From Flavobacteriia bacterium (lineage in GTDB: Bacteria; Bacteroidota; Bacteroidia; Flavobacteriales_D; Crocinitomicaceae): 41,291 nt of DNA. The translations under genes were made by a program, and so were the position numbers. The notes under the pieces are model-generated. The model did no database searches. It was given only the letters and a program-made list of their open reading frames with translations, and was not told the origin of the DNA. The stretch covers positions 1 to 41,291 of the forward strand of contig CANHVK010000013.1 of assembly GCA_947464135.1 (NCBI GenBank). The letters run 5' to 3'. The number at the start of each line of letters is the position of its first letter. The first letter of the stretch is position 1. Of the stretch, positions 24,647 to 41,291 are shown piece by piece.

Positions 24647-24661
24647 TTATCACATAGATTT

Positions 24662-24696
24662 AATAAAAAAGGGACTTTGAAAGTCCCTTTTTTATT
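24662..24696. terminator. Bidirectional terminator between pdhB and fabD
   Basis: Perfect 16-bp stem (24662-24677 with 24681-24696) and a 3-base loop. The core is GGGACTT/AAGTCCC, flanked by an A run and a T run so that either strand has a U tract. It lies between the convergent pdhB and fabD stops. Confidence 0.9.
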
Positions 24697-24712
24697 AAAT
24701 CTTACTTATGTT

Positions 24713-25609
24713 TTAGGCTTCTGAAGATTCAATTACTGCTGAAGATGTTTGAAATGATCTATCTACCTTTTTAAATAGCCCTTGTAACACTTTTCCAGGT
24801 CCAACTTCTGTAACTGATGTGCAACCATCTGCAATCATTTGTTGCATTGTTTGTGTCCATCTAACTGGAGCCGTTAATTGCTCTATTAAATTCTTTTTAA
24901 TTTCATCTGGATTTGAAATTGCTTTTGCTGTTACATTTTGATATACTGGACAAATAGGAGAATTGAAAGTAGTCTCTTCTATTGCTTTAGCTAATTCTTC
25001 TCTTGCTGATTCCATCAATGGCGAATGAAATGCGCCACCGACTTGTAATACAACAGCCATTTTAGCACCAACATCTTTCAATTTAGCACAAGCTATCTCA
25101 ACTGCTGTAACTTCACCAGAAATCACTAATTGACCGGGGCAATTATAATTTGCAGCAACAACTACACCGTCAATTTCTGCACAAATATCTTCTATTACTT
25201 TATCATCCAAACCAATAATTGCCGCCATTGTTGATGGAGTTGTTTCACATGCTTTTTGCATAGCTAAAGCACGTTTATATACTAAATTTAAACCATCTTC
25301 AAAACTCAATGTTTTATTAGCTACCAATGCTGAAATCTCACCTAATGAATGACCAGCAACCATGTCTGGTATAAATGAGTCACCCAAGCACGCCGCTAAA
25401 ATAGTTGAATGTAAAAATATTGCTGGCTGTGTTATTTTGGTTTGTTTCAATTCCTCATCTGTTCCATAAAACATGATTTTATGAATTTCAAAACCCAAAA
25501 TCTCATCTGCTTTTAAAAACATTTCTTTCGCAATAGGATTTGAATCAAACAAATCCTTTCCCATTCCGGAAAATTGTGCTCCTTGACCAGGAAATACATA
25601 TGCTTTCAT
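24713..25609 (-). CDS. fabD: Malonyl-CoA:ACP transacylase FabD
   Basis: Moves malonyl groups from CoA to acyl carrier protein for fatty acid synthesis. I chose ATG 25609 (MKAYVFPGQGAQFSGMG), the usual FabD N-terminus; the longer frame adds 15 hydrophobic residues of no known role. The nucleophile is Ser88 in VAGHSLGE. His193 in GGAFHSPLM is the partner, and Arg111 in VYKRALAMQ binds the malonyl carboxylate. Length is 298. It is a single gene between two terminators. Confidence 0.96.
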   Translation of the reverse strand: MKAYVFPGQGAQFSGMGKDLFDSNPIAKEMFLKADEILGFEIHKIMFYGTDEELKQTKITQPAIFLHSTILAACLGDSFIPDMVAGHSLGEISALVANKTLSFEDGLNLVYKRALAMQKACETTPSTMAAIIGLDDKVIEDICAEIDGVVVAANYNCPGQLVISGEVTAVEIACAKLKDVGAKMAVVLQVGGAFHSPLMESAREELAKAIEETTFNSPICPVYQNVTAKAISNPDEIKKNLIEQLTAPVRWTQTMQQMIADGCTSVTEVGPGKVLQGLFKKVDRSFQTSSAVIESSEA

Positions 25610-25632
25610 AATATTATTTTGTGTTATACTTA

Positions 25633-25640
25633 CAAATATA
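25633..25640 (-). promoter_or_regulatory. Putative -7 box for fabD
   Basis: TATATTTG on the minus strand matches TAnnTTTG and lies 24 bases upstream of the fabD ATG. A TTTG (25656-25659) is 15 bases further upstream, somewhat closer than usual for a -33 element. Confidence 0.4.
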
Positions 25641-25662
25641 ATCAATATGTTCAATCAAAAAA

Positions 25663-25689
25663 AAACGTCTTGCTAATAGCAAGACGTTT
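25663..25689 (-). terminator. Rho-independent terminator of the T9SS cargo gene
   Basis: A perfect 12-bp stem (25663-25674 with 25678-25689) and 3-base loop, followed on the minus strand by a run of T residues. It lies 20 bases after the stop of the 1074-residue gene. Confidence 0.9.
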
Positions 25690-35721: not shown

Positions 35722-38115
35722 ATGGATAAAAAGAGTTTATCTGAAAGAGATATATGTACGAAATTTATTAGTCCAGCTATTGAAAAATCTGGATGGAATA
35801 AGCTTACGCAATATTTGGAAGAGGTATCTTTTACAGATGGAAAAATTCATGTTAGGGGGAAATTGACAGCTCGTGGAAGTAAAAAACGAGCAGATTACAT
35901 TTTATATTACAAGCCTAATATTCCCATTGCTATAATTGAAGCAAAAGATAATAAACATTCTATTCGTGCGGGAATACAACAAGCGCTTGATTATTCTAAA
36001 ATTTTAGATATTCCATTTGTGTTTAGTAGTAATGGAGATGGTTTTCTATTTCATGATAAAACTCAAGTGAGTGAGCAAATAGAGACTGAATTATCACTCG
36101 ATGAATTTCCTTCACCCGAACAACTATGGGAAAAATATAAAATTCACAAAGGCATTTCTACACCTGCAGCCGAAAAAATGATCGCACAAGATTATTTTTT
36201 CGATGGTACAAACAGAAGACCTCGATATTATCAACAAAATGCAATAAATAGAACGATTGAAGCTGTTTCTAAAGGACAAAATAGAATTCTTTTAGTAATG
36301 GCAACAGGAACAGGAAAAACCTATACTGCGTTTCAAATTATTCATCGTCTTTGGAAAAGTGGTGCAAAAAAACGCATACTCTTTTTAGCAGACAGAACAG
36401 CCTTGATTGACCAAACTCGTAAAGGAGATTTTAAACATTTTAAAGATAAAATGACGGTTGTAAAACAACGTCAAATTGATAAAAGTTATGAAATTTATTT
36501 AGCATTGTATCAAGGCTTGTCGGGAAATGACGATGAAGCAAATGTTTACAAACAATTTTCACCTGAATTTTTTGATTTAATTATCATTGATGAGTGTCAT
36601 AGAGGTAGTTCGAAAGAAGATAGTTCTTGGAGAGAAATATTGACTTATTTTCAAAATGCAACGCAAATTGGTTTAACCGCAACACCAAAAGAAACAGACG
36701 AAGCAAGTAATACGGAATATTTTGGAGATCCAGTATACACCTACTCGTTAAAACAAGGGATTGATGATGGTTTTTTAGCACCATATAAAGTTTTACGTGT
36801 TGGTTTAAATGTGGATACTGAAGGTTGGAGACCTGAACAAGGCAGAAGAGATAAAGATGGGTACGATATTGAAGACCGTATCTATAATCGTAAAGACTTT
36901 GATCGAAAGTTAGTTATAGAAGAACGTACAGAAATTGTTGCCAAAAAAGTCACTGAATTTTTGAAAGGTTTTGACAGATTTGCTAAGACAATTATTTTTT
37001 GTGTGGATATTGACCACGCAGAAAGAATGAGAACAGCTTTAGCAAAGTTAAATCCTGATTTGGTTGCTGAAAACTACAAGTATATCATGCAGATTACGGG
37101 TGATAATGAAGAAGGAAAAAGAGAATTAGATAATTTTATCAATCCTGAAGAAAAATACCCAGTTATTGCTACAACGTCGGAATTAATGACCACAGGAGTG
37201 GATGCTCAAACGTGTAAAGTAATTGTGTTGGATACCAATATTCAATCTATGACAAAGTTTAAGCAAATTGTAGGTCGTGGAACGCGTATCAATGAGGAAT
37301 TTGGTAAACTGTATTTTACGATTTTAGATTTTAGAAATGCTACAGATTTATTTGCAGATAAAGAATTTGATGGAGACCCAATTCATGTTAAAGTTACAGG
37401 ACAGGAAGATGATTTAGAAAAAGAACCTGAAGATGAAACTGTAGGAGATGAACCCGTAATAGATCCTGTTTCAGGAAAACCAATAATTTTTCAACCTGAA
37501 CCACCAACCTATCGTCAGCCACCTAAAGAAGATTTAACTACAAATGAACCGAGAGCAAAATATTATGTAAATGGTGTAGATGTTTCTGTATTAGTGAGTC
37601 GTGAATTGTATTTTGATTCTAATGGCAAGCCAATTACAACAAGCTTGAAAGATCATACCAAAGAAATTATCAAAGGACAATTTCATTCATTGGATGACTT
37701 TTTAACTAAATGGAATACCGCCGATAAAAAAGAAGTTTTAATTAATGAATTAATGGAACAAGGTGTAATGGTTGAAGCCTTGTATGACGCTGTTGACAAA
37801 GAGGTTGACCTATTTGATTTAATTTGCCACGTAGCATTTGATCAACCACCTTTGACTCGGAAAGAACGAGCAAACAATGTGAAAAAACGCAATTATTTCA
37901 CCAAATATGGCGAACAAGCGCGTAAAGTATTAGAAACCTTATTAGATAAATATGCTGATGAAGGTGTAGAAAATATTGAAAGTATAGAAGTGTTAAGGGT
38001 AAAACCTTTTGACGAATATGGCTCTCCCTTAGAGATTATTCAAGAATTTGGTAGTAAAGTCAAATACCTTGAAGCAGTGAAAGAATTAGAATACGAATTA
38101 TATAAAGAAGCATAA
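35722..38115 (+). CDS. hsdR: Type I restriction enzyme R subunit (EcoEI/EcoAI type, helicase-nuclease)
   Basis: Motor and nuclease subunit of a type I restriction enzyme. The N-terminal PD-(D/E)xK nuclease domain shows Asp58 (RADYIL) and Glu73-x-Lys75 (IIEAKD). The SF2 helicase core has motif I ATGTGKT (194-200), motif II DECH (290-293), GLTATPK and the late motif IVGRGTRI. The C-terminal part (about 625-797; KGQFHSLDDFLTKW, RKERANNVKKRNYFTKYG) is the EcoEI_R_C domain of type IB enzymes. The roughly 800-residue length also fits. hsdM begins one base after its stop. Confidence 0.95.
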   Translation: MDKKSLSERDICTKFISPAIEKSGWNKLTQYLEEVSFTDGKIHVRGKLTARGSKKRADYILYYKPNIPIAIIEAKDNKHSIRAGIQQALDYSKILDIPFVFSSNGDGFLFHDKTQVSEQIETELSLDEFPSPEQLWEKYKIHKGISTPAAEKMIAQDYFFDGTNRRPRYYQQNAINRTIEAVSKGQNRILLVMATGTGKTYTAFQIIHRLWKSGAKKRILFLADRTALIDQTRKGDFKHFKDKMTVVKQRQIDKSYEIYLALYQGLSGNDDEANVYKQFSPEFFDLIIIDECHRGSSKEDSSWREILTYFQNATQIGLTATPKETDEASNTEYFGDPVYTYSLKQGIDDGFLAPYKVLRVGLNVDTEGWRPEQGRRDKDGYDIEDRIYNRKDFDRKLVIEERTEIVAKKVTEFLKGFDRFAKTIIFCVDIDHAERMRTALAKLNPDLVAENYKYIMQITGDNEEGKRELDNFINPEEKYPVIATTSELMTTGVDAQTCKVIVLDTNIQSMTKFKQIVGRGTRINEEFGKLYFTILDFRNATDLFADKEFDGDPIHVKVTGQEDDLEKEPEDETVGDEPVIDPVSGKPIIFQPEPPTYRQPPKEDLTTNEPRAKYYVNGVDVSVLVSRELYFDSNGKPITTSLKDHTKEIIKGQFHSLDDFLTKWNTADKKEVLINELMEQGVMVEALYDAVDKEVDLFDLICHVAFDQPPLTRKERANNVKKRNYFTKYGEQARKVLETLLDKYADEGVENIESIEVLRVKPFDEYGSPLEIIQEFGSKVKYLEAVKELEYELYKEA

Positions 38116-38116
38116 A

Positions 38117-39553
38117 ATGAGCAATATTTCAGGAATTTTAAAAAGCATTCAAACAATTATGTGGCAAGACACTGGACTAAACGGTGATGCTCAACGTATT
38201 GAACAATTAGGTTGGATGCTTTTTTTGAAGATTTTTTCGGATAAAGACAAAGAATTAGAATTGATTGATGATAGCTATGTTTCTCCCATTCCTGATGAAT
38301 TTCATTGGGTAAAAGAAAAAGGAAACTGGGCGGGTGATGATGAAGGTATGACAGGAGATGAGTTGTTGGAATTTGTTGATCGACAATTATTTCCTGCGAT
38401 GCGTGCTATTGATATTAGCACAGGAAACAAACGTGCTTTGATTGTACGTGAAGTTTTTGAAGGAAACAACAATTACATGAAAAGTGGAATCAATATTCGT
38501 AAGGTATTAAACAAGCTGAACGAAATTGATTTTAACATCGCTAAAGACAGACACGCTTTCGGTGAATTGTATGAAACCATTTTGAAAGGCTTACAAAGTG
38601 CTGGTAAGAGTGGTGAGTTTTATACTCCAAGAGCAATTACTTCTTTTATAACAGACATTCTGAATCCGCAATTAGGAGAGAAAATTTTAGATCCTGCTTG
38701 TGGAACAGGTGGCTACTTGACGTGTGCAATTGAACACTTAAAAACACAAGCAAAAAATATAGAGGAAAGAAAAGGCATTGAAGCGAACATTGCAGGGTGG
38801 GAATATAAACCTCTTCCCTATTTATTAGCTACAACCAATTTAATTTTACACGATATTGAAATTCCAAACATTAAGTTTGGTGATGCGCTCGATCAACCAT
38901 TAAGTAATTTCACAGAAAAAGACAGAGTAAACGTAATACTTGCAAACCCTCCATTTGGCGGAATTGTTGCAAATGGAAATGAAACCAATTTCCCTACCAC
39001 TTTCCGTACCAAAGAGAGTGCAGATTTGTTTTTAATCTTGATGATTCATTTATTGAAAAAAGATGGAAGAGCAGGAATTGTTTTACCGGACGGTTCTCTA
39101 ACAGGTGATGGCGTAAAACAACGCGTGCGACAAAAGTTATTGGAAGAGTGTAATTTACACACCATTATACGTCTACCTAATTCTGTGTTTCAACCTTACG
39201 CTACAGTAGCAACCAATTTATTGTTCTTTACCAAAGGTACTCCAACTAAAGAAATTTGGTACTATGAACACCGCTTACCAGAAGGACAAAAAGCATACAA
39301 TAAAACAAAACCAATTCAAGCGAAAGAATTTGACCCGATTAAAACGTGGTGGAACGACCGCAAAGAAAGTGATATTGCTTGGAAAGTAGATATACAGACT
39401 ATTATTGACCGCAATTACGACTTGGATATCAAAAACCCAACGAAGCAAGAAGTAGTGCAAGAATATTCAAGTGCTGAATTGATGGAAATGTTACATACTT
39501 CTTTTGAAAAAAGTAACGGATTATTGAATCAATTAAAAGAAGCGGTAAAATGA
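38117..39553 (+). CDS. hsdM: Type I restriction enzyme M subunit (adenine-N6 DNA methyltransferase)
   Basis: Modification subunit that methylates adenine in the recognised site, protecting host DNA. The N-terminal helical HsdM_N domain (about 6-150) is followed by the gamma-class methyltransferase domain. SAM-binding motif I is DPACGTGGY (192-200) and the catalytic motif IV is NPPF (277-280). GEFYTPRAI before motif I is characteristic. Length is 478. The stop overlaps the DUF1016 gene by 4 bases, so that gene is part of the operon. Confidence 0.96.
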   Translation: MSNISGILKSIQTIMWQDTGLNGDAQRIEQLGWMLFLKIFSDKDKELELIDDSYVSPIPDEFHWVKEKGNWAGDDEGMTGDELLEFVDRQLFPAMRAIDISTGNKRALIVREVFEGNNNYMKSGINIRKVLNKLNEIDFNIAKDRHAFGELYETILKGLQSAGKSGEFYTPRAITSFITDILNPQLGEKILDPACGTGGYLTCAIEHLKTQAKNIEERKGIEANIAGWEYKPLPYLLATTNLILHDIEIPNIKFGDALDQPLSNFTEKDRVNVILANPPFGGIVANGNETNFPTTFRTKESADLFLILMIHLLKKDGRAGIVLPDGSLTGDGVKQRVRQKLLEECNLHTIIRLPNSVFQPYATVATNLLFFTKGTPTKEIWYYEHRLPEGQKAYNKTKPIQAKEFDPIKTWWNDRKESDIAWKVDIQTIIDRNYDLDIKNPTKQEVVQEYSSAELMEMLHTSFEKSNGLLNQLKEAVK

Positions 39554-40644
39554 GTCTGGAAGTTCAATTCTCTGAAATAAAAAATCTCATCACACAAGCT
39601 CGTAACAGAGCGTATCAAGCTGTAAACAATGAATCTATTCTATTGAATTGGAGTGTTGGTGAATATGTGAGTACTAAATTGAAGTCCGCTTCTTGGGGAG
39701 ATGGTGTTGTTGCTCAATTAGCTGATTTTTTAAAAATACAAGAGCCTTCCTTAAAAGGATTCGATAAAAGAGGTATTTATAGAATGGTTCAATTTTATGA
39801 TACTTATACGAATCCTGAATTTGTGTCGACAGTGTCGACACAATTAGAATTATTGGAAAAATCAAATGTGGTGACACTGTCACCACAAATACAAATCAAT
39901 GATAATCAATTAAATGTATTTGTGTCAACAGTGTTGACACAAATAGCGTGGTCAAACCATTTAGAGATATTAGTTTCCTGTAAAACATCCGAAGAAAAGT
40001 TGTTTTATATGTTAATGACAAAAAAAGAAAGATGGAGTGTTCGAGATTTAAGAAGGCAAATCAAAGCTTCCACATTTGAACGAACTATGTTGGGAAATCA
40101 ACAAGTAGAACAAATACAAAAACACATTCCTCAAAATATTACGAACATTTTTAGAGATACGTATGTTTTTGAATTTTTAGATATACCTGTATTACACTCG
40201 GAACAAACACTTCGCAAAACACTCCTGAAAAACTTAAGTTCTTTTATGAAAGAACTAGGCAATGACTTTCTTTTTGTTGGTGAAGAATTTAAAGTGTCTG
40301 TGGGAATGCAAGATTTTTTTATTGATTTATTATTTTACCACAGAGATTTGCAATGTTTGGTTGCGTTTGAATTGAAAACAGAACTATTTACTCCTCAAAG
40401 TTTAGCACAAATCAATTTCTATTTGGAAGCACTCGACCGTGATGTGAAAAAACCGAATGAAAACCCAAGTATTGGAATTCTATTGTGTAAAGGAAAAGAT
40501 GATTTGGTGGTAGAATATGCATTAAGTAGAAGTTTAAACCCTGCTATGATTGCGGATTACCAATTAAAATTACCCAACAAGGAAATTCTTCAGGCAAAGT
40601 GGTTGGAATTGATTGAAATGAGTGAAAATAAGGACGAGATATGA
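39550..40644 (+). CDS. DUF1016/YhcG-type PD-(D/E)xK nuclease-fold protein within the type I RM operon
   Basis: A 364-residue protein. The N-terminal DUF1016 domain (about 5-88) has the QARNRAYQAVN, WSVGEYVS and KGFDKRGIYRMVQFYDTY motifs. The C-terminal nuclease-like domain carries Asp259 (FFIDLLFY) and Glu274-x-Lys276 (AFELKTE), so the catalytic residues appear intact. A linker (about 91-132) has three copies of a short peptide like FVSTVLTQI, encoded by three palindromes. YhcG proteins often sit in or beside type I RM operons, where their role is unsettled; they may be a regulator, accessory nuclease or anti-element factor. Four-base overlaps with hsdM and hsdS indicate tight coupling. Confidence 0.9.
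   Translation: MSLEVQFSEIKNLITQARNRAYQAVNNESILLNWSVGEYVSTKLKSASWGDGVVAQLADFLKIQEPSLKGFDKRGIYRMVQFYDTYTNPEFVSTVSTQLELLEKSNVVTLSPQIQINDNQLNVFVSTVLTQIAWSNHLEILVSCKTSEEKLFYMLMTKKERWSVRDLRRQIKASTFERTMLGNQQVEQIQKHIPQNITNIFRDTYVFEFLDIPVLHSEQTLRKTLLKNLSSFMKELGNDFLFVGEEFKVSVGMQDFFIDLLFYHRDLQCLVAFELKTELFTPQSLAQINFYLEALDRDVKKPNENPSIGILLCKGKDDLVVEYALSRSLNPAMIADYQLKLPNKEILQAKWLELIEMSENKDEI
39821..39945. repeat. Three in-frame palindromes inside the DUF1016 gene
   Basis: Palindrome 1 (39821-39843) has 11-base arms around G39832, palindrome 2 (39867-39887 overall, centre 39877) has 10-base arms around C, and palindrome 3 (39917-39945) has 14-base arms around G39931. All arms are perfect. Half-sites are TGTGTCGACA, TGTGGTGACA and TGTGTCAACA. 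The three differ in the middle bases but each arm is matched by its partner. Centres are 45 and 54 bases apart, both multiples of three, so the peptide repeats stay in phase. Confidence 0.85.
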
Positions 40645-41291
40645 GTTTAACAAACCCAAAAGAGAAATTAAAATTGGAAACAAAATATTTTCCACTTTCA
40701 TTTATAAATACGGAAGAAGAAGTTTTAAAACAGATTAAAAATACATTCATATTTTCTTATCTATTAGATAAATATGATGAGACAACTTTACAGAATTATC
40801 TTGTATCAACGCAATATGGATACACAGCTTCCGCTCTAGAAAAAGGTAATCATAAATTAGTAAGAATTACAGATATAAATAACGGAACTGTAGAATGGGA
40901 AAATGTTCCTTTTTGTGATTGCGATTCAGAGGAAAAATATTTATTAAAAGAAAACGACATATTAATAGCAAGAACGGGAGGAACAACTGGAAAAAGTTTT
41001 CTAGTAAAAGATGTTCCAGAGAATGCAGTATTCGCAAGTTACTTGATTAGACTTAGATTAAAGGATGGTGTTGATTTTGAATTCATTAATAAATTTTTAA
41101 ACTCTTATGTTTTTTGGAGTCAAATTGTAGAAATGAAGTCTGGATCAGCAATGCCAAATGTTAATGCGGAAAAATTAAAAACACTTCGAATACCTAAATG
41201 CGATAATAAAGTACAACAAGAAGTATTAAAGTTATTTAATAATGAAAATGAAGACTTTTTATTTCCTGAATTAGCTTTAAAAATAAATACA
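40641..41291 (+). CDS. hsdS: Type I restriction enzyme S (specificity) subunit, 3' end beyond window
   Basis: Open from ATG 40641 (MSLTNPKEKLKLE) to the window end, 217 codons, without a stop. It overlaps the DUF1016 stop by 4 bases. The first target-recognition domain is visible: a short N-terminal region, then LVRITDINNGTVEWENV, the LKENDILIARTGGTTGKSFLV stretch, ASYLIRLRL and the GSAMPNVNAEKLKTLRIP end, which is typical of HsdS and precedes the conserved coiled-coil helix. HsdS picks the DNA sequence that HsdM methylates and HsdR restricts. The second recognition domain lies outside the window, so the target cannot be inferred. Confidence 0.92.
   Translation, partial: MSLTNPKEKLKLETKYFPLSFINTEEEVLKQIKNTFIFSYLLDKYDETTLQNYLVSTQYGYTASALEKGNHKLVRITDINNGTVEWENVPFCDCDSEEKYLLKENDILIARTGGTTGKSFLVKDVPENAVFASYLIRLRLKDGVDFEFINKFLNSYVFWSQIVEMKSGSAMPNVNAEKLKTLRIPKCDNKVQQEVLKLFNNENEDFLFPELALKINT

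Follow-up and report, generated by a model that had tools for sequence, protein, structure and literature searches.

The palindromes carried within DUF1016/YhcG genes are very likely recognition sites for the genes' own protein products, a reading that rests on covariation between site bases and protein residues and for which there are no binding data. The analysis followed up three perfect palindromes in one such gene of a 41,291-nucleotide window, the window being the whole stretch of DNA that was analysed. An earlier sequence-only reading had noticed the feature in that gene; it is in fact family-wide.

A DUF1016/YhcG gene with three perfect palindromes

Membership of the DUF1016/YhcG family was defined as a score above the gathering score for both Pfam domains, which was met by the 364-aa window protein (PF17761, 121.7 bits against a cut-off of 32.8; PF06250, 177.8 bits against a cut-off of 32.5). 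The protein is a member of the PADLOC candidate defence family PDC-S02 and of Pfam DUF1016_N + YhcG_C. A helical DNA-binding region forms the N-terminal part and a PD-(D/E)XK nuclease domain the C-terminal part, and the gene lies between hsdM and hsdS (Table 1). The catalytic residues of the nuclease domain are conserved in the alignment; nuclease and anti-phage activity are inferred. When the full protein was used in a fold search, significant matches were seen in the nuclease domain only, with NucS/EndoMS as the closest solved folds, and a search of solved structures by sequence gave no match.

Table 1. Coordinates of the DUF1016/YhcG gene, its neighbours and the features within it (positions in the window)
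Feature	Position	Strand	Remarks
hsdR	35722..38115	+	type I restriction-modification operon shared with the DUF1016 gene
hsdM	38117..39553	+	4-nt overlap with DUF1016 start
DUF1016/YhcG gene	39550..40644	+	PF17761 3.1e-35; PF06250 1.8e-52; PADLOC PDC-S02 2e-115; AF2 model pLDDT 84
Predicted recognition helix 1 codons, aa 73-87	39766..39810	+	DSSP on model, covariation
Palindrome copy 1, TTGTGTCGACAGTGTCGACACAA	39821..39843, centre 39832		arm 11; in insertion
Palindrome copy 2, TGTGGTGACACTGTCACCACA	39867..39887, centre 39877		arm 10; in insertion
Palindrome copy 3, TATTTGTGTCAACAGTGTTGACACAAATA	39917..39945, centre 39931		arm 14; family-wide site, 12 nt upstream of (L)SW codons
Predicted recognition helix 2 codons, aa 164-172	40039..40065	+	DSSP on model, covariation
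YhcG PD-(D/E)XK nuclease domain, aa 199-345	40144..40584	+	D259 and L275-K276 invariant in alignment; Foldseek matches NucS/EndoMS
hsdS	40641..41291, runs off window	+	4-nt overlap with DUF1016 stop

Arms and coordinates of the three palindromes were re-checked. In all three copies the arms pair perfectly on either side of one central base, so that the earlier claim of perfect arms of 11, 10 and 14 bases held, as did that of differing middle blocks (TCG/CGA, GTG/CAC and TCA/TGA) and that of centres spaced by multiples of three: the spacings are 45 and 54 nt, and each centre falls at codon position 1. A repeated peptide in a linker had also been claimed, and the peptides read at copies 1 to 3 are FVSTVSTQ, NVVTLSPQ and VFVSTVLTQI. 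Among 3000 synonymous-codon shuffles of the gene, 2991 contained no odd palindrome with an arm of at least 10 and 9 contained one; two or three were never obtained. The whole 41-kb window holds six perfect palindromes with arms of at least 9, three of them inside the DUF1016 gene.

The DUF1016_N match in the window protein spans 170 aa against a 137-position profile, and copies 1 and 2 therefore lie inside an insertion. Copy 3 occupies the ancestral position, copies 1 and 2 being extra.

Two perfect palindromes elsewhere in the window (24656-24702 and 25663-25689, with arms of 23 and 13) flank a minus-strand ORF at 24713-25654, and the former resembles a bidirectional terminator. The window genome contains four DUF1016 matches in all; one of these, L070 (G000:C2:61020-63427), is truncated to 224 aa and carries an imperfect palindrome of other specificity.

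Sites of the same kind across the family

For the family-wide survey, homologues were collected from sampled genomes of the window's phylum, named genomes across many phyla and viral contigs, giving 203 non-redundant genes; DUF1016_N was present in 164 of the 395 genomes sampled from the phylum. A perfect palindrome with an arm of at least 9 was found in 87 of the 203 genes, against about 2.7 expected in synonymous shuffles. All but one of these 87 were odd-length, and 83 were centred at codon position 1. Under a relaxed definition (at least 10 of 12 pairs matched), in-phase sites were present in 140 of the 203 genes, and sites in the other two phases in 8 and 4 genes. About 30% of the family genes have no site at this threshold.

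The sites are about 25 bp long. Most often they separate the coding segments of two predicted helix-turn-helix units and lie 12 nt upstream of where a conserved (L)SW[T/S]H motif is encoded. The core CA-N-TG and the ends ATT...AAT are conserved, with positions -3 to -9 variable between genes. Genes with a longer linker have displaced or additional copies, and two or more sites were found in 41 genes. A second palindrome of similar core occurs in several relatives of the window gene (among them L109, L110, L119, L132, L135, L152 and L183). It lies in the linker codons before the nuclease domain, at a distance of 183 nt (231 nt in L135) downstream from the main site; the window gene lacks this second site.

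Non-coding copies could also be observed: L033, L170, L123 and L088 have one 23-38 nt ahead of the start, and E. coli and L221 have one 27-28 nt beyond the stop. The upstream copy of L088 is unlike that gene's own intragenic sequence. Site density adjoining the gene is about 10 times background; fewer than 10 genes have an upstream copy, and for this reason operator placement could not be assessed statistically. Around the Sulfurovum DUF1016 gene L111, GTTTGGCANTGCCAAAC occurs three times (-111, +1579 and +2253 relative to the ORF), the intragenic site of that gene being different; it is perhaps part of another repeat.

Site bases covary with two helices of the protein

Covariation was computed between the palindrome bases and all protein columns except those that the palindrome encodes, using 156 genes (effective number 110). 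In the first helix, residues K73, R74, Y77 and R78 of the window protein covary with positions -9, -7, -9 and -5, respectively; in the second, V164 covaries with -3, and R165 and R169 with -2. The strongest pairs are 164/-3, 74/-7 and 78/-5, with z values of 11.8, 10.3 and 8.1 for the left arm; the right arm gave the same top three pairs at 11.4, 10.8 and 8.0. Pairs 77/-9 and 165/-2 were also high. The maximum z in eight control DNA windows was 5.6. In a run of within-cluster shuffles in which residue 74 was masked, the observed value was reached in 0 of 200 for 164/-3, 78/-5 and 165/-2.

By weighted counts, R74 occurs with G at -7 in 48 of 50 cases, R or K at 78 with C at -5 (G on the other strand) in 52 of 56, N or Q at 78 with A in 20 of 22, R or K at 164 with C at -3 in 38 of 40, and R165 with C at -2 in 67 of 68; V164 occurs with A or T. 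Such a code is chemically sensible. The base was then predicted from the residue in left-out clusters of 50% identity: accuracy was 84% for 78 to -5 (baseline 22%), 84% for 74 to -7 (49%), 75% for 164 to -3 (29%) and 62% for 77 to -9 (36%). For 165 to -2, the 72% obtained in left-out clusters is below the majority baseline of 77%. Shared ancestry in the gene set was handled by these shuffles and left-out clusters, without a full phylogenetic model.

For the window protein, R74, Y77, R78, V164 and R165 predict G at -7, G at -9, C at -5, A at -3 and C at -2, a prediction borne out by copies 1 and 3; the base at -5 of copy 2 is T. In the AlphaFold2 model the covarying residues are placed at the starts of helices 73-87 and 164-172, each of which follows a helix and a short turn. 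On our reading of the model, these are predicted to be the recognition helices of helix-turn-helix units. When only the N-terminal domain of the model was submitted to Foldseek, the top ten matches were all ParB/Noc DNA-binding domains, at weak significance (E 1.0-2.6). Where two paralogues occur together in a genome or contig (11 pairs), they never have a half-site in common.

Selection acts on the DNA

Selection on the sites at the level of DNA, family-wide, is very likely. Comparison of copies within one gene gave 69 paired two-sided changes against 13 unpaired, with 71 more that were one-sided. Among mismatched pairs in 288 sites, G.T (96) was no more frequent than A.C (113), from which we conclude that the selected molecule is DNA and not RNA. 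Between L072 and L083 a single compensated pair alters two residues (H to Q and C to S) with retention of the palindrome.

Synonymous codons were then examined in non-redundant genes. Where the codon covering -9 to -7 encodes valine, genes with R74 use GTG in 32 cases and GTC in 1, and the others GTC in 12 and GTG in 1 (p 4e-9); leucine codons covering the same positions track residue 74 too (p 2e-5), and valine codons at +3 to +5 track residue 78 (p 4e-6). It is hard to see why a synonymous codon should follow a recognition residue at a distance unless the protein reads this DNA. The sites thereby offer a rare clear case of coding sequence in which selection on a DNA site overrides codon choice, and even amino acids.

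The earlier proposal that palindromy itself rather than the peptide is selected is thus supported by the synonymous shuffles, the wrong-phase controls, the coupled changes and the residue-following codons. It would have been refuted by homologues without palindromes, or by palindromes explained by codon conservation; this was run on the family and was not met. Among the roles suggested at that time, that of a binding site for the encoded protein has strong support from the protein-DNA covariation, again without binding data; a cutting site stays a possibility only, no cleavage data being available; a recombination hot spot has circumstantial support, from E. coli alone; and an mRNA hairpin tuning hsdS translation is disfavoured, as there is no G-U excess.

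Occurrence of the sites outside the gene

No other window-type site with 0-1 mismatches was found in the window genome. For three further genomes, the site of the resident DUF1016 gene was used as query, and the only match in each was in that gene; these genes were already known beforehand. A blind scan of the 395 genomes for the window-type site TTGTGTCNNCANTGNNGACACAA returned 13 sites, 10 of them within DUF1016 ORFs. Of the remaining three, one lies about 300 nt downstream of a DUF1016 gene and two are in other places, one of them close to the end of a contig. In L254, around position 1511, an isolated site (TTGTGTCGCCAATGGTGACACAA) was seen outside long reading frames with no DUF1016 gene within 1.5 kb; it is perhaps a remnant of gene loss, as in E. 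coli.

Alleles and empty loci of E. coli yhcG

The E. coli member, yhcG, was detected in 4434 of 5426 complete genomes. Its site in O157 is AATTCGCCAGACAGTGTCTGGCGAATT and that in the divergent allele of ES7 is AATTGTGCAGACACTGTCTGCACAATT, and residue 74 and position -7 differ together (K74 with C in O157, R74 with G in ES7). K-12 yhcG has three imperfect copies, only one of which obeys the code at -7; despite K74, position -7 is G in copies 2 and 3 and also in the downstream copy. The E. coli copies differ in 3-bp blocks with complementarity kept.

In 947 of the 5426 genomes yhcG is absent and gltD is joined directly to nanQ. Four such empty loci were sampled (L228, L232, L233 and L234) and compared with filled gltD-nanQ loci (L095, L099 and L100). 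Each empty locus holds a single perfect palindrome, AAATTCGCCAGACAGTGTCTGGCGAATTT, whose core 27 bases are those of the intragenic palindrome of O157 yhcG, and in K-12 palindromes are located at each end of the gltF-yhcG segment. Insertion of yhcG into a pre-existing palindrome was initially attractive as an explanation, and was weakened by Salmonella, in which yhcG adjoins gltD. Because of this arrangement the empty locus was read as a deletion, which is the likely interpretation, possibly one between palindromes.

Relative to K-12, O157 yhcG is without 78 nt, equal to two 39-nt repeat units. Rearrangements of yhcG in other strains end at the edges of the third copy, where matches stop at nt 406 or begin at nt 385, as in the independent disruptions of L096 (4001-4406) and L097 (from 4001). 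It is possible that the E. coli copies are fragile or recombinogenic.

Proposed mode of action

In the favoured explanation, the N-terminal region of DUF1016 proteins would contain two helix-turn-helix units, the helix from aa 73 reading about -5 to -9 and the helix from aa 164 reading half-site positions -2 and -3. Two subunits would bind, one per arm, and the sites would be symmetric for that reason; dimeric binding is itself inferred from the symmetry. The sites would occupy codons of a permissive linker, and so would be kept without harm to the fold and carried with the gene into any operon. Against recognition by the gene's own protein stand the roughly 30% of genes without a site, those within-gene copies that break the code, the failure of residue 165 to exceed its baseline, and the merely weak likeness of the N-domain model to ParB/Noc DNA-binding domains.

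What follows from binding is a matter of inference. The bound protein may block or slow transcription through its own gene, making the site an intragenic, portable autorepressor; we regard this as rather less probable than its negation. Autorepression would hold a potentially toxic nuclease low, and here also the downstream hsdS, and an intragenic site would move with the gene into operons such as hsdM-DUF1016-hsdS, where the gene has no promoter of its own. A mid-gene operator is, however, less usual than a promoter operator, and upstream copies are few; autorepression is thus without direct support. By inference only, it is placed first among the consequences considered, with self-directed cleavage or recombination second and a role as tether or sensor possible.

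Alternative explanations

The nearest rival shares the binding and differs in its consequence: the protein may bind its own gene to cut it or to stimulate recombination, with gene conversion, gain and loss of copies, homing-like spread to related alleles or the keeping out of incoming elements that also carry the gene as conceivable purposes. This remains possible. It is favoured by the C-terminal PD-(D/E)XK nuclease domain with its NucS/EndoMS-like fold, by the earlier prediction that the domain is Holliday-junction-resolvase-like (PMC1189080), and by the E. coli record of 78-nt repeat loss, rearrangement at third-copy edges and genomes without the gene. On the other side, cutting one's own gene would be costly and no protection is known, the empty E. 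coli loci are more likely deletions than pre-insertion targets, and palindrome rearrangements require no cognate nuclease. A bolder reading, also no more than possible, is that of a self-addressed nuclease, one that co-evolving sites inside its own gene bring to that gene and that acts there; the action may be cutting, tethering or a self-restraint lifted on phage attack, with a private specificity for each lineage or paralogue. If this is true, a nuclease gene that targets itself would represent a class of genetic element without earlier description.

Four further rivals were considered. Template switching between the arms of chance inverted repeats is known to homogenise such arms and to yield paired multi-base changes in coding DNA (PMC8604942, PMC8794818), and could make perfect arms without selection on palindromy; the block changes seen between copies, two-sided and paired in 69 cases against 13 unpaired, could have arisen in this way. 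It does not predict one location and codon phase across phyla, conserved ends and core, a base code of recognition helices or residue-dependent synonymous codons, so that it may help to mend arms and is very unlikely as their cause. An mRNA hairpin tuning translation or termination in the operon is also very improbable: palindromic transcripts can form hairpins, and in E. coli a terminator role is possible for the copy lying between yhcG and nanQ, but no clear G-U excess was seen and the bases track protein residues. That the linker peptide packs on the two helices, the palindrome being a by-product of a conserved peptide and codon usage, would draw on the covarying residues and the linker being in one protein, with residues 133-138 adjoining the site. 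This can be all but ruled out, given that the signal is equal in both arms and present at wobble positions, that the codon still tracks residue 74 or 78 when the amino acid is fixed, and that non-coding copies exist. A dispersed selfish element that entered the gene by chance, like Rickettsia palindromic elements (RPEs), which insert in frame into coding sequences (PMC4316617), has next to nothing left in its favour, since the site type is nearly confined to the DUF1016 family and no sequence is common to the genes.

Recognition of a cruciform or of structure only, suggested by the complementary 3-bp blocks of the E. coli copies, was dropped since base identity tracks protein residues; structure could still contribute. 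An internal start codon at the central NTG was set aside, the centre being C about as often as G.

DUF1016 is widespread and is a candidate anti-phage system. In the open-access literature on DUF1016 or PDC-S02 that was searched (titles, abstracts and relevant passages), neither a mechanism nor such a DNA site was found. A DNA target and a residue-to-base code are now proposed. The code could allow cognate sites to be predicted for other DUF1016 proteins, and binding, specificity swaps and function become directly testable.

Comparison with known systems

No earlier description of an intragenic self-site was found in the literature searched; several known systems share parts of it. In its action the N-domain is like ParB/Noc, to which the weak fold matches also point and in which a dimeric helix-turn-helix protein sits on a perfect palindrome and few interface residues set specificity; four such residues determine palindrome preference (PMC7383237). 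The corresponding relation in DUF1016 is shown by covariation only, without binding data. Whereas parS is nearly invariant in sequence and clustered near the origin (PMC7022226), the DUF1016 site varies from gene to gene and sits inside the gene. The 364-aa window protein has no ParB CTPase Pfam domain and has a nuclease domain attached instead; given this absence and the variable site, the protein was not filed as a ParB.

In-frame palindromes within coding genes are also known as Rickettsia palindromic elements (PMC4316617), and coding palindromes have been described in hairworm mitochondria (PMC6649704). Those occur in many genes, whereas the DUF1016 sites belong almost only to one family, are gene-specific and are matched to the protein. 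The Rpn (YhgA-like) genes resemble DUF1016 in encoding PD-(D/E)XK anti-phage nucleases with a control element in their own reading frame and with variation in repeat number (PMC10327210); they belong to another family, and control there is exerted by an antitoxin protein translated from within the gene rather than by a DNA site. With homing endonucleases, the endonuclease's own gene interrupts and thereby protects the site, whereas the DUF1016 sites are intact inside the gene.

Autoregulatory operators, such as those of the controller (C) proteins of restriction-modification systems, offer a further parallel: a restriction-linked nuclease in need of restraint, a dimer on a symmetric site at its own locus and, in some DUF1016 genes, a copy that precedes the start by 23-38 nt. 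As stand-alone helix-turn-helix proteins of small size, C proteins act at a promoter (an example is PMC4321490). In DUF1016, by contrast, reader and nuclease are parts of one protein, and the sites lie mostly in coding sequence.
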